64,000 nt of DNA from Sulfobacillus thermosulfidooxidans DSM 9293 (GTDB lineage Bacteria; Bacillota; Sulfobacillia; Sulfobacillales; Sulfobacillaceae), in NCBI RefSeq assembly GCF_900176145.1, contig NZ_FWWY01000001.1, positions 1,287,819-1,351,818 on the forward strand, given 5' to 3'. Of this stretch, positions 28,330 to 64,000 are shown in pieces. Below the pieces are notes generated by a model. It did no database searches. It saw nothing but the letters and a program-made list of their open reading frames with translations, and was not told the DNA's origin. Position numbers and translations under genes: made by a program. Position 1 is the first letter of the stretch. Each line of letters starts with the position of its first letter.

Positions 28330-29643
28330 TTAGTTTCCTACTACCCATGCATTCAATGAACCGGCAGTTAAAGTTCCTGTTCCTGCTGCTTGCACAGAAA
28401 CCGTATATGTTTGTCCTTTTACGACAGAAAACGATCCTACCGGTGTCACACTAGTATATCCCCCACTGATGGGGATATCATTAATAAACTCTTGAAAGGG
28501 TTGAGTACTGCCTTTTGCGGCTGGGAGACCGTGGCCGTTGACCAAAAACCATCCTTGAAGCGCGTCACCGACCGCTCCACTATCTGTTAAGGAACTCTCC
28601 ATCATGAGGGTACCCGAGAACTGTGGCGTGATCGTGACCGACATGACCGTTGTGCCTGATGTTCCGAGTGCTACCGTGTTGGTTAACAGTGTAGCTGCGC
28701 CTGCTGTAGGTCCTGGCGGTCCTGCGGGTCCTTGAGGACCGGTTGGTCCCTGGGGTCCTTCGGGCCCACTGGGTCCCTGGGGCCCTTGCGGGCCGGGTGG
28801 GCCGACTAATTTGGTTCCTTGCGTGGGCCAGCCATGAGCCGTCTTAGGACCATAGAGCGTTTCGTTAGCTGTATCGAGATAAAAATCGCCCACAACACCT
28901 AGCGTATTTTGGGGAAGGGTACTTCCGCTTAACACTGAGGTGCCATTTCGTCCTGCGGGGCCTTGCGGGAGACTGACCGAAATCTTAAGCGGTGAACTGA
29001 AGACGGCACCGTACATTGTGGCAGGTGCCGCCGGTGACTTGGCATACGCAATGATTTTGTATGTCCCAACATCCCGCGGTACCAGGGTAAATGTATTCGC
29101 CGTACTGTAATGTTGCCCAAGTCGCCACTGTCCTTTCGGACTCCAATACCAAAATTGATATACCGGATGATAAATATGCTGCGAAGATGCGCGAATCGTT
29201 ATGGGCTGATCTACCCAAGATGATAATGCCGAAGACGAGAGCTTGACACCACTTTCAACAAACACACTGGCAGTTGACGAAGATTGTACTAGTGACCATT
29301 GATGAGCTTGAACTTCATTGGCGCTTAAAACATCGGCCAGAACTAGGTAGTTTCCTTGCTGAACGGGGCCTAACGTGAACGTGGGACGCTGACTATAGTT
29401 TTGCATTGCTATCCATGTTCCGTTCGGTTTTTCAACCCAAAATTGGTACAAGGGATCAGGCATGTCCTGTGCGCTGGCGCGAAAAGTCACAGTCGCCCCT
29501 GATTGAACGATACTGCGTTGCGGAGTTAAGGTCACGTATGGCATTTTTGGGGTATCAAAGGCAGTTACTGATTTTTCCCTTAACAATCCTAGGCTAGTGA
29601 CGATTATTCCCAAGGTGCTGATTTCTACGATACGACGAATCAT
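28330..29643 (-). CDS. Exported collagen-like protein with two YQFW repeats
   Basis: This 437-residue surface protein starts with a hydrophobic signal/anchor (about 1-22). Two repeats follow, each opening at YQFW (residues 66 and 162, 96 apart) and carrying the pattern P.G.W...NYS, FTL, G.Y...AYA. A linker with [18 protein letters not shown], a type often seen before bacterial collagen stalks, leads to eleven perfect Gly-X-Y triplets (about 281-313). The C-terminal domain of about 120 residues (ending SLNAWVVGN) may be a trimeric head, by analogy with Bacillus collagen-like exosporium proteins. It probably has an adhesin or matrix role. The repeats match those at 59616-62864 and 63164-64000. 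Confidence 0.82.
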
Positions 29644-29876: not shown

Positions 29877-30587
29877 TCATACGTCTATCAGTGAAGCATC
29901 TTGCCACGTGGCGGCAGGTTGAGGTTTTCCCATGGCATAACCTTGGACTGCGTCAACCCCTTCAGCTGCTAAGGTTGATAACCAGGCCCGGTCTTCCACT
30001 CCTTCGGCTACGACCGTCGCGCCAATAGAATGGGCAGCACGAACCCAAGATTGGAGCGATTGGACATGTCCGCGGTGCCATTGATGCACCATGTTAAGGC
30101 TTAGCTTCACCACCTGGGGTTGCAGAGCATACAGTTGGTGTGGTGTAGCATAACCTGTCCCCGCATCGTCCAATGCAAAGGCATAGCCACAGTCTTTTAG
30201 TCGCCCAACGATGGTGACGGCGTCGGTTGTCAAGGGATATGTTTCCGTAATTTCCCAGATGATGCGAGCAGGGTCGATGCCATGCTTCCACCGCATGACC
30301 CACGACAAGTATGGCGCTCCAATGTTGAGAAACAGTTTTCCCGGAAGTGTCGCTGCATCTTGAATTGCGGCGGTGAGCGCCACTGCGTCTAATTGTTCGA
30401 CGAGCCCCTGTTCCTCGGCCAACGCCCACACACGGTCCGGCGGACTACCATTCGGAAATCGGGTCAGCGCTTCAAATCCGAGGAACGTTCCATCGACGGT
30501 CCAAATGGGTTGAAAAACGGGCTGAATTTGTCTCTCTTCAATGGCCGCGACGAGAGCGGTGCGCCAATTGACGTGTTCGATCATCAT
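29877..30587 (-). CDS. EAL-domain cyclic-di-GMP phosphodiesterase
   Basis: This 236-residue protein is a bare EAL domain. The EAL signature is at 39-41 (GFEALTRF), followed by FLNIGAPYL, IIWEITET, ALDDAGTGYA, VVKLSLNMV, VVAEGVED and QGYAMGKP. The metal- and base-related Glu, Asn, Asp-Asp, Lys, Glu and Gln positions are all kept, so hydrolysis of cyclic di-GMP is likely. Loop 6 has DDAGTG instead of DDFGTG. ATG 30587 follows GGAGGG. It is divergent from the response-regulator operon, so shared control is plausible. Confidence 0.88.
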   Translation of the reverse strand: MMIEHVNWRTALVAAIEERQIQPVFQPIWTVDGTFLGFEALTRFPNGSPPDRVWALAEEQGLVEQLDAVALTAAIQDAATLPGKLFLNIGAPYLSWVMRWKHGIDPARIIWEITETYPLTTDAVTIVGRLKDCGYAFALDDAGTGYATPHQLYALQPQVVKLSLNMVHQWHRGHVQSLQSWVRAAHSIGATVVAEGVEDRAWLSTLAAEGVDAVQGYAMGKPQPAATWQDASLIDV

Positions 30588-30895
30588 TGTTCCCTCCTTG
30601 GAACGAGATATCTTCCTTGAATCGTCATCATAGGCATTCGCGATAATCTGAAGAAACCCTTTTTTAATATCGACATTTCGACGCCGAGGTTCGACAAAAA
30701 ATGGTGATGGAAAAAAGGAGTTTCGATCATGATGCCGAATATCCCACACATCATCGAGATGATGAGGCCAACCGATTCGCACGGGATAGTGGAGACGAGT
30801 CATTGACCGGACCGGAAAGAAGCGTGTCTGTTGCGATCGCGGAGATCAGGGCTGCTTTCAATGGGCGAACACACGCGAAAGGGAGGGAGTCGGCA
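30588..30895. other. Divergent promoter region of the signalling module
   Basis: This is 308 nt between the EAL gene and the response-regulator operon. Frames of some length cross it on both strands but lack ribosome binding sites. No operator could be picked out by eye. Confidence 0.35.
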
Positions 30896-59615: not shown

Positions 59616-62600
59616 TTACGAGATGGTGACCATGCTCTCAGCGGTGACGGCATAAGCTGCCGTCGCTGGTGCATAAGGATCTTTGGCGTATACGATGACG
59701 TGGTAAGTTCCGCTTTGAGATGGGGTGAATGTAAAGGTGGCTTGACTCTGGTAGTTGCCACTGGCTACCCATTGCCCGCTTGGTGTCTCATACCAAAATT
59801 GGTAAACAGGATTAGTAATCCCAAAGGACGCGGCGGTGACGGTGAGAGGATTTTGAACCGCCCCCGTGTTGGGAGCATTGAGTGTGGCATGGCTATTCAC
59901 GTCAATCACAGTGGAAGACCGGTATGCCTCATTGAATAGCCTTTGAGCGACTTGTGTTTTGTCAAGCGCATAGACAGCAATGACATAACTCCCAGAGGCA
60001 AGTTGCGTTAACGACAACACATTGTTGGGCGAATAATTTTGCACCATTTTCCACTGGTTAGCGGGTCCGTGGATCCAAAATTGGTACTCTGCCACGCCCC
60101 CTGGATCTTGAGCGCTTGCCGTAATTGTGGTGGACGCCCCTTGTGCAAACTGCGTGTTAGGGCTGTTTACAGTCAAACCCGACACCATGGGCGTAGAGCT
60201 ATGATTCACAAAGTGGACCTGCCCTGTTGCTGCCAACAAGGTGCCCTGGGAGGTTTTGACATAAAGAAGAACCGGATAAACCCCAGGGACGACTTCTTTC
60301 ACTATCCAGTCAGGCTGCGAACTAAAGGGACCTGATGACGTCCACTGGGATGTGGCCGGGTTTTGCATCCAGAACTGGTATTCCGTGGTGCTACTACCAC
60401 CAAGGGCTTTTATTTCAACGGAGCTCAACGTTGGAGGATTACTTGGCACCGATAGACTAATATCACTGACCTGGACCGAGGTGGTCGCCTGAAAGAGGGT
60501 TTGCCCATTGTTTTCAATGGATACGGTGATGCTTTGGGTACCCGGTGTATTGAACACGGCGGAGAATTGTCCCGTTCCCCCGCTTAAGTTGAGGGTCGAA
60601 GGTAGCGTTGCCTGGGTATCTGTTGAGGTAATCACAATGGAACCGGGAAGGTTGCCGGTGACAGCTCCCTTGGCATTTAATGCCGTGACATTGACGGTTA
60701 CGGGCTGGCCGATATTGACATGAGATGGAGTCGCTTGAATGACAAGCTTTGTGGCGATATTGGTTGAGAGCGATAAGGCGAGCTGGTACCAATTGGGGAG
60801 TCCCAACCCCGTCACGGGATTCCATGTTCCATCTTGCGAAGAACTCACTTGGTACACCCCGTTGCTTCCCCACTGAGCCTGGGTAAAATCGCTGGGATGA
60901 GTACCTGCCATATGATAAAGCCATGGATTAATATTGCCGAGGCCTTCTGATTGGCCAGAAAAATTTTCCAGCAATGATAGCCAACCTGCAGTCAAGGGGG
61001 CGGCTAAACTAGTGCCACCCATGGCGACTTGTTGACCCCCAGTAATTCCAAGAAATCCAGGGATGCCAGCTAACGCGGCAATGTCCGGCGCTCCAATGCC
61101 TGGGGCAGTGGCTGGCAGGAAAGGGGCTTGCCAGGAAGGAATGGGACTTGTTCCGAATCCCCCGCTGGATGCGGCATTGGGTGCGGTATAGGCCTCAGCA
61201 ATGGCCGTGGGCAATCCATTCAGGTAATTTCCTCCCCATGCCTTGGCAAGGGGTGGGGGGCTGACCGACGTCATATTGCCTGACTGGTCAAATTGTGCAG
61301 GGGAGGCTAGATCTAAGCCTCCAACAGATAGCACGCCCGCTTGAGCATCCATCAGATCAATGCCGACCGGTCCTGGATCGGATCCACTGTCCCAAGCGCC
61401 TTGGTCGCCACTAGCGTTGACGATGGTTATCCCTTCAGCAATACAGGCATCAACCAGTGGGGTAATACTCGAGGGATCAATTCCAAAGAAGCCGTAGGAT
61501 ATGGAGGCAATTTTGGCGGTGGATTGCCCTGCTAAATCATTCAGAAACGACGCTAAAGGATCCGTCGGGTCGTTGGCTGGAAAGACATATTCATCAATAG
61601 GAGCACCGGGATCAATGGACGCCACGGCTTGAATGTCGATATTCGATTCGGGCAAGTCTTGCGTGCTGGTCATGGCGGAAGTGGCTCCATCTTCGTAATA
61701 AAAATGGACTGGTGGCATCGGCAAATTTTCTTGGTTCATCAGCTGGTTGAGATCAGTTAAGCTGGGAATTTGTCCTTGAACATATAGCGCAACCGGAGAC
61801 GGTGTACCTTGTGCCCGGCTAAACGCGGCGTTGCCAGTTAGGGTATTCAATTCGGGACCGGTTAAAGTGTTTAATACTGAAGCATTTCCGGTAAATGGTG
61901 GAAGGGTACCTTGAATGGTTTCTGTCTGCCCATCACTTAATGTCACTGTCATCGAAATGCTGCTAGACGAAGACGAGGCCGTGTAACCTGATAGCTCAAT
62001 TTGCCAAAGACTGCCGTTCGATGCGGGTAAGGCGGTTGCTGAGCCATAGATGGCGACATTGCTGGATGCTGAAATGTTACTCACATGGGTAATGCTTACC
62101 GGAGTTCCCTGGCTATTTTGGGCTGCGACAAACATGTTAAAAGGCAAACCCGCGGGAATAGCATGGGTGATATCTGGATTCCAGCTGAGCAAGCTAATGA
62201 GATCCCCGGAACCCGAAGGAAATTGTTGCAGATATGTGGGCGTCTCGTTGAATTGAAAGGCACTGAGGGATCCTGCTTGCCCTGAACTTTCTGGATGGGC
62301 CGTCACCGTGGGACGGGAGTGGGGCAACAGGTGCACTTTGGTCAAGGTCATTTGATGGACAATGTGAATAGGCGTAAGCCCATTCACACTCCAAATATTG
62401 GGGGAGACCGGGATGGCTGGATTATTGACATGGGCAGGCACATTCACCGTGACTAAAAATCCCTGCACACGCTGAATATGCCAACCAGCGGCTTTAAGGC
62501 TTTTAAATGCCTCGTGCCACTGTGTAGGAGACGGGCCAAAACGCTTCATCAGCGCACGAGGACTCAAAAAATGATGGTATAAGGGACTTCCAACTTGGCT

Positions 62601-62864
62601 GACGGCTTGGCTATATTGTTCAAGGGCCTTGATTTTACTGGGACTGTCAATCAAAACAAACAGGGTTTTGGGCCGGGACAAATCTTTTAAGTGGTGCATT
62701 TCGGCCACGAGCGATGATGTTTGGTAAAAATTGGTTCTCGGTAATTGTTTGACCATCTTGGCATTAAGACTGTTCAGGTGAACGACTGGCAGCGGGGGCG
62801 AAGAGGAAGGCGTGAGAGAACCTGCAACTGTCGATAAGAGAATGAGTAGCGAATGAGCAAGCAC
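59616..62864 (-). CDS. Secreted sedolisin (S53) protease with YQFW repeats
   Basis: This 1082-residue exported acid protease has a signal peptide (about 1-16), a pro-domain (about 40-170), an uncommon Ser/Thr-rich segment (about 200-345) and the catalytic domain (about 350-700). Catalytic residues are Glu406 and Asp410 (ESNID), Asp487 (ASGDQGAW) and Ser619 (GGTSLAAP), with the calcium region near WNPVTGLG. A bacterial Ig-like domain (about 705-805) follows, then three YQFW repeats starting at 829, 927 and 1021. Sedolisins work at low pH, in line with an acidophile. The start is GTG 62864 after AAGGAGG. The repeats probably bind the protease to a cell-surface polymer. Confidence 0.92.
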   Translation of the reverse strand: MLAHSLLILLSTVAGSLTPSSSPPLPVVHLNSLNAKMVKQLPRTNFYQTSSLVAEMHHLKDLSRPKTLFVLIDSPSKIKALEQYSQAVSQVGSPLYHHFLSPRALMKRFGPSPTQWHEAFKSLKAAGWHIQRVQGFLVTVNVPAHVNNPAIPVSPNIWSVNGLTPIHIVHQMTLTKVHLLPHSRPTVTAHPESSGQAGSLSAFQFNETPTYLQQFPSGSGDLISLLSWNPDITHAIPAGLPFNMFVAAQNSQGTPVSITHVSNISASSNVAIYGSATALPASNGSLWQIELSGYTASSSSSSISMTVTLSDGQTETIQGTLPPFTGNASVLNTLTGPELNTLTGNAAFSRAQGTPSPVALYVQGQIPSLTDLNQLMNQENLPMPPVHFYYEDGATSAMTSTQDLPESNIDIQAVASIDPGAPIDEYVFPANDPTDPLASFLNDLAGQSTAKIASISYGFFGIDPSSITPLVDACIAEGITIVNASGDQGAWDSGSDPGPVGIDLMDAQAGVLSVGGLDLASPAQFDQSGNMTSVSPPPLAKAWGGNYLNGLPTAIAEAYTAPNAASSGGFGTSPIPSWQAPFLPATAPGIGAPDIAALAGIPGFLGITGGQQVAMGGTSLAAPLTAGWLSLLENFSGQSEGLGNINPWLYHMAGTHPSDFTQAQWGSNGVYQVSSSQDGTWNPVTGLGLPNWYQLALSLSTNIATKLVIQATPSHVNIGQPVTVNVTALNAKGAVTGNLPGSIVITSTDTQATLPSTLNLSGGTGQFSAVFNTPGTQSITVSIENNGQTLFQATTSVQVSDISLSVPSNPPTLSSVEIKALGGSSTTEYQFWMQNPATSQWTSSGPFSSQPDWIVKEVVPGVYPVLLYVKTSQGTLLAATGQVHFVNHSSTPMVSGLTVNSPNTQFAQGASTTITASAQDPGGVAEYQFWIHGPANQWKMVQNYSPNNVLSLTQLASGSYVIAVYALDKTQVAQRLFNEAYRSSTVIDVNSHATLNAPNTGAVQNPLTVTAASFGITNPVYQFWYETPSGQWVASGNYQSQATFTFTPSQSGTYHVIVYAKDPYAPATAAYAVTAESMVTIS

Positions 62865-63163
62865 GAAGATGTCCTCCTTGAAATTCCACGAAACACACTG
62901 AAGGAACCGTCAATTGTTATCCGTAAATATTCGCCACAATGACGCAAAGTCCTCTTTTGACGCGATAGCAGTTCACCATGGTCACCGCGATAAAAAAGCA
63001 AAAACGATAAAATGAGCAAAAAACCAGTGTCTAAATATTTATTTTATTTTTCTGCAGCAATAGTGCATCCGTATTGGAAAATATTTCGTATTTGTTAATA
63101 GAAGATATGATTTTGTCTTCAAGGCGTCATGATATGGGTCAATGGATTGTGGGAGGCGTTTTT

Positions 63164-64000
63164 ATGACATTGAAAAAAAGTTCTGGGCTGGCGTTAGCAT
63201 CCGCAACGGCAGCATTAGCATTGTTTCCGCTGACAGCATTTGCGGCATCGAGTACCCCAGTACTCATGGCAAGCACGAAATTAGCCAGTGCCGGTCAATC
63301 AGTAACCTATACGGTCGAAGATCCCTCTGCTACCGCATCAACTGAGTATCAATTTTGGGTGGAGACTCCTGCTGGACAATGGATGGTTTCACAAAATTAT
63401 TCTGCGTCAAATCACTTAACCCTCAATAATGTGAAAGCTGGTACCTATGAAGTGGTGGCCTATGCTCTCAACCAAAGCGAGGTGCAGGCTCGCGACTGGT
63501 CGATGGCGATGCCAACTACTCCAGACAGTTTATATGTGAATGCTTCGGTATCCCTTAATGTGACATCGACAACCTCCTCATCAGGCTCGGTGACCGCGAC
63601 GGTCACGGTTAACGCGGTCAATATTGGAAATGCCGTGTATCAATTGTGGTGGAAAACTCCAACGGGAAACTGGCATGCAAGTGGTAACTATCAATCCTCG
63701 AATACTTTCACATTACCTTTAACAGAAAATGGTAGTTATCAATTCGTCGCGTTTGCGAAACCGCCTGCCGCGGTATCAAGTTACGTCGGTGCATTAGCGA
63801 GTAGTGCCAAAACCATATCTGTTTCCGCTCCCGCGGCTATGGTGATGCTCTCGCCTGCTGTTAGCAGCTTGCACACATCAAGTGGTGGTCTTGACCCCGT
63901 GATGGTCACTGTGCTTAACGCTAAAGGCGAACAGGTAATGAACTTCAATGGGAGTGTCACCGTTACCGATACCGAAGGTCTCTTAATGAATGCGTCAGGA
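63164..64000 (+). CDS. Exported protein with YQFW repeats (partial, runs off window)
   Basis: The frame is open to the end of the window (279 codons). ATG 63164 follows GGGAGG. A signal peptide (MTLKKSSGLALASATAALAL, cut probably after AFA at 25-27) precedes two repeats, YQFW at 62 and YQLW at 159 (97 apart). An Ig-like segment starts at about 230 (VMVTVLNAKGEQVMNFNGSV), similar to that of the sedolisin. It is divergent from the protease gene across a 299-nt gap and probably shares its control. The C-terminal end is beyond the window, so its final domain is unknown. Confidence 0.8.
   Translation, partial: MTLKKSSGLALASATAALALFPLTAFAASSTPVLMASTKLASAGQSVTYTVEDPSATASTEYQFWVETPAGQWMVSQNYSASNHLTLNNVKAGTYEVVAYALNQSEVQARDWSMAMPTTPDSLYVNASVSLNVTSTTSSSGSVTATVTVNAVNIGNAVYQLWWKTPTGNWHASGNYQSSNTFTLPLTENGSYQFVAFAKPPAAVSSYVGALASSAKTISVSAPAAMVMLSPAVSSLHTSSGGLDPVMVTVLNAKGEQVMNFNGSVTVTDTEGLLMNASG

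Follow-up and report, generated by a model that had tools for sequence, protein, structure and literature searches.

An ordered pair of Y_Y_Y-type repeats as a probable non-covalent surface anchor of exported proteins in Sulfobacillaceae

The window, i.e. the whole stretch of 64 000 nt of the Sulfobacillus thermosulfidooxidans genome analyzed here, encodes three proteins which carry a repeat of ~96 residues opening with YQFW or YQLW (Table 1). A preliminary description of the region had reported seven such copies in three exported proteins, and translation confirmed every position and gene: the repeats open at residues 66 and 162 of a protein with a collagen-like stalk, at residues 829, 927 and 1021 of a protease and at residues 62 and 159 of a propeller protein. 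Followed beyond the window end, the gene of the last has a full open frame of 711 residues and encodes an NHL/SGL-like propeller. The protease sequence contains a GGTS-AAP serine motif, an ASGDQG aspartate and an E-x-x-x-D pair, which we take to be the catalytic motifs known for sedolisins, and the enzyme looks catalytically intact from its sequence; a PDB sequence search with it gave no match. The collagen-stalk gene is adjoined by a gene for an EAL-domain protein of the c-di-GMP phosphodiesterase type (29877-30803), with response regulator and kinase genes beyond it, and a link to surface or biofilm control is possible.

Table 1. Repeat domains and repeat-bearing genes of the window
Feature	Position (nt)	Strand	Basis or remark
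Exported protein: hydrophobic N-terminus, A-B pair, short collagen-like Gly-X-Y stretch, C-terminal tail	28330..29643	-	
A domain, collagen-stalk protein	29257..29538	-	alignment, HMM
B domain, collagen-stalk protein	28969..29256	-	alignment, HMM
Exported kumamolisin/sedolisin-type protease: Pro-kumamolisin activation domain, C-terminal repeat block	59616..62864	-	
Extra divergent repeat preceding the pair, kumamolisin-type protease	60183..60470	-	found in nearly all protease relatives
A domain, protease	59895..60182	-	alignment; AlphaFold2 pLDDT 94 for A-B pair
B domain, protease, C-terminal end	59619..59894	-	alignment; pLDDT 97, B alone
Exported propeller protein, runs off window end	63164..64000	+	
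A domain, propeller protein	63248..63538	+	alignment, HMM
B domain, propeller protein	63539..63829	+	alignment, HMM

We trained a hidden Markov model (HMM) on 177 repeats from other genomes, leaving out the window's genome and a near-identical sister. This model recovered all seven window repeats with domain E-values between 4.8e-14 and 2.9e-32, while 1000 shuffles of the three proteins reached a maximum of 12.5 bits. From these E-values and the ceiling set by the shuffled controls we conclude that the repeats are neither a chance finding nor merely a short motif, and the seven copies indeed align across the whole ~96 residues. Among the 366 frames of the window the same model gave no other convincing match.

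The mobile unit is not the single repeat but an ordered pair of two domains, A and B, of ~190 residues. A domains are marked by EYQFW, G-W, QNYS, GSY and YAL, and B domains by PVYQFW, P-G-W, SG-Y, GTY and YAKDP-AP. We placed 234 repeats from many genomes in a tree: of 103 second copies, 97 group in a single clade, and of 106 first copies, 92 fall elsewhere. The remaining 14 first copies, inside the clade, belong to proteins that have two copies of B type. Exactly two copies are present in 90 of the 120 pair proteins of the family and three in a further 20, mostly the protease, in which one additional divergent copy precedes the A-B pair. Two weak third repeats from the first search (big1_3 and gh18_3) were discarded as false. 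Two B-type copies take the place of A-B at L017:10673-11734, L118:2443-4434 and L159:3128-4330; the latter two proteins have an N-terminal membrane-like segment and may bridge membrane and wall.

The suspected resemblance to the Y_Y_Y domain was borne out by a Pfam profile search, in which PF07495 scored above its curated cut-off of 26.6 bits in two of the three window proteins (P0003, 51.1 bits; P0001, 29.0 bits) and in most relatives, with the collagen protein under the cut-off at 19.4 bits. The proposed likeness to clostridial triple-tyrosine proteins held in part: the NCBI model PRK14081 (NF010681) matches all three window proteins weakly, but the best score of 48 bits covers the repeat region only and compares with a cut-off of 842 bits for a full-length equivalog. 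The pair thus shares with PF07495 and PRK14081 the sequence family, the Ig-like fold and the conserved tyrosines. These are conserved to 78-96% in the consensus of A and B, with a lower value for the NYS tyrosine of A, and sit in the YQFW, NYS/SGxY and GxY strands. AlphaFold2 models the pair as two Ig-like beta sandwiches (pLDDT 94 for the A-B pair, 97 for B alone), for which Foldseek returned generic Ig/FN3 folds. Near the top of the list for the B domain, among many Ig folds, we observed the carbohydrate-binding protein Sas6 (TM 0.72) and a porphyran-binding module; these were set aside as proof of a ligand, the fold match being generic. The described function of Y_Y_Y concerns Bacteroides sensor kinases, where the domain of BT4663 is a spacer engaged in dimerisation (PMC5121618), whereas in Sulfobacillus it forms ordered A-B pairs, which are fused to many exported cargoes. 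The domain family is already known, but in the open-access literature we found no paper that gives a Y_Y_Y or triple-tyrosine pair an anchoring role.

The window's genome encodes 11 A-B pair proteins, eight of them outside the window, and most of the 11 genes lie in other parts of the chromosome or on a second contig. Their cargo comprises the kumamolisin-type protease, a GH18 chitinase-like enzyme, a beta-helix with a GDSL esterase, the propeller, the collagen stalk, long Ig proteins of Big_1 and invasin type and several regions of unknown kind. By eye or in a simple hydropathy scan, the pair proteins start with a hydrophobic export-type segment, and they are predicted to be exported by an N-terminal signal. 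We matched the pair in 32 of 34 Sulfobacillaceae genomes, several of which are draft assemblies where an absence is less certain; a query with a single pair returned six loci only. The pair loci include Sulfobacillus benefaciens. The 120 pair proteins of the family fall into 26 cargo clusters. The pair is located N-terminally in 66 proteins and C-terminally in 29, and some proteins consist of little beyond it. The largest cluster (cluster 0) holds 28 long Ig-rich A-B proteins from many genomes of the family. One of its members, L016:11531-15487 (genome C1:1357530-1361486), is a candidate Sulfobacillus S-layer protein.

We searched the family for known anchors. None of the 120 pair proteins combines an LPxTG motif with a short C-terminal tail, sortase genes are sporadic in the family with one in the window's genome, and SLH domains (PF00395) were absent from all 34 Sulfobacillaceae genomes. 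SLH anchors have the same general job as the one considered here, the non-covalent attachment of diverse exported proteins, but the A-B pair shows no sequence match to them. CWB2 (PF04122) gave no match in any A-B protein scanned and none in the window's genome. In Clostridium difficile, CWB2 triplets anchor protease, hydrolase and S-layer proteins by binding PSII, an anionic polymer of the wall; the repeats are non-identical and their order matters, and one wall-binding module serves both the S-layer protein and accessory proteins (PMC4973711). The A-B pair resembles the CWB2 module of this Cwp family in its tandem non-identical repeats of fixed order, its position at either protein end and its S-layer-like, protease and hydrolase cargo, and homologous cargo occurs in related genomes; it differs in having no PF04122 sequence match and in consisting of two Ig-like domains, each of ~96 residues, where the CWB2 module has three repeats.

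Homologous cargo was observed with either module. A long surface protein of genome G399 carries CWB2 three times at residues ~42-353, and its residues 379-1182 align to residues 267-939 of a long protein of G328 (31% over 819 aa, E 4e-63), in which A-B occupies residues 63-256 and the homology begins at 267, directly after the pair. GH18 enzymes that share the same PG_binding_1 domain (E 3e-27) bear either CWB2 or A-B, depending on the clade, and the two modules sit at opposite chain ends. In the kumamolisin-type proteases of G399 and G400, CWB2 is found at the C-terminus, the site of the repeat block in the others (E 5e-45); the CWB2 protease also matches PDB kumamolisins with E 4e-39, and the former match could partly reflect general kumamolisin homology. 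In genus g273 one and the same tail follows three A-like repeats in one case and CWB2 in another (53% over 197 aa). A comparison of CWB2-bearing loci with the window region matched only the protease and generic regulators and so gave no sign of a conserved gene order.

On the level of genomes the two modules are distributed in a nearly complementary way. CWB2 gave 11-47 matches in seven of the 34 genomes and 0-2 in the other 27, and CWB2 is most abundant in the two genomes that lack the pair. A strong pair match was found in 24 of the 27 CWB2-poor genomes compared with one of the seven CWB2-rich ones (Fisher p 4e-4). Because the seven CWB2-rich genomes form a single clade in the rpoB tree (support 0.998), this distribution amounts to about one change, in either direction, on the species tree, so that the p-value overstates the association and the genomes are not independent evidence. 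The exchange on the level of genes is the stronger evidence. The modules are not mutually exclusive, as G404, G406 and G407 have CWB2 and pair-like repeats together. In these CWB2-bearing genomes we observed long surface proteins with divergent A-like repeats (L128:862-4512 of G406, with three repeats, and relatives in G404 and G407), which are perhaps an intermediate form.

Since A-B stands where CWB2 stands on homologous cargo and has fixed, ordered repeats of its own, the same job as that of CWB2 is the most likely one. We therefore favor, with a probability of about 0.68 and judging from sequence comparison, the reading that the A-B pair anchors proteins non-covalently to the cell surface. 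Each pair protein would be exported by its N-terminal signal, and the pair would fold into its two beta sandwiches. The unlike A and B, in their fixed order, would jointly hold the protein to a cell-wall component, most likely a wall-linked glycopolymer, and the attached protease, GH18 enzyme, esterase, propeller, collagen stalk or long Ig-rich protein would thereby be displayed at the surface. In Sulfobacillaceae the pair would thus fill the role for which clostridia, and one clade of this family, use three tandem CWB2 repeats. We infer that the pair alone would be sufficient for retention. The common surface role assumed for the repeats in the preliminary description gains strong support from the exchange with CWB2 anchors.

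A different reading takes the pair as a rigid Ig-like spacer, which holds the cargo off the surface or chain while something else provides retention. Such a function would agree with the Ig/FN3-type fold and with the spacer described for BT4663, but spacers usually vary in length, and the number of copies here is almost constant at two, while A and B are not equivalent and keep their order. In addition, some proteins comprise little except the pair, no other anchor was found (LPxTG tails on the pair proteins, SLH in the family, CWB2 in the window's genome), and on homologous cargo it is CWB2, a true anchor, that occupies the place of the pair. We consider a spacer improbable.

We judge it similarly doubtful that the pair is an adhesion or matrix module instead of a wall anchor, with a secreted exopolysaccharide, an external glycan or a mineral surface as its target. 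The carbohydrate-binding neighbors of the B fold and the sugar-polymer genes of the window would fit, and a glycosyltransferase gene adjoins one repeat gene outside the window (L017). However, the fold match is unspecific, the pair copies are scattered over the chromosome and the second contig, and the exchange with CWB2 points to the wall. The more specific suggestion that the exopolysaccharide of this locus is the ligand found no specific support: the sugar-polymer genes (7.9-17.5 kb) are separated from the repeat genes by ~11 kb and ~42 kb, and the majority of the eleven pairs are encoded in other parts of the genome. By analogy with CWB2, a wall glycopolymer appears the likelier ligand. 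Docking of the pair as an assembly module on an S-layer or other surface protein, which may even be the long A-B protein, is very unlikely, for although an S-layer has been reported for a Sulfobacillus species and long Ig-rich A-B proteins make up the largest cargo cluster, these long proteins bear the same pair and hence also need a partner, and the S-layer and accessory proteins of C. difficile use one wall-binding module.

If the anchor reading is correct, the Y_Y_Y family, so far mainly described as a spacer of sensor proteins, would gain a cell-surface role, and the exchange would be an example of one wall anchor substituting for another on conserved cargo. Sulfobacillus is a bacterium of bioleaching and acid mine drainage for which few S-layer proteins are annotated, and the module supplies a candidate anchor, a candidate surface proteome (11 proteins in the window's genome) and candidate S-layer proteins. 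The wider proposition has in our view slightly less than an even chance: that SLH, CWB2 and peptidoglycan-binding modules are joined in Bacillota by A-B as one more general type of non-covalent wall anchor, and that A-B recognizes a wall glycopolymer of its own and has replaced CWB2, or the reverse, across entire surface proteomes of acidophiles.

In a phylum-wide sample the pair was rare and weak outside Sulfobacillaceae, and PF07495 itself was found in 8 of 300 genomes. Two clostridial genomes outside the family, Pelotomaculum and a Desulfotomaculaceae bacterium, carry the pair on long proteins alongside SLH domains, and Ig-like domains were confirmed in the Pelotomaculum protein. Their A-B pairs (L061:5887-10035 and L062:5872-8967, respectively) are 44-45% identical to that of the window, and a transfer between lineages is possible. 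A second protein that combines a collagen-like stretch with an A-B pair was observed in another genus (L109:3879-5213 of G425); its glycine-rich tail is a different one. Finally, two closely related paralogues, in which the pair is combined with a C-terminal region of unknown kind, are encoded at L018:6740-8650 and L022:7534-9516; one gene lies on the main contig, the other on the 249-kb second contig.
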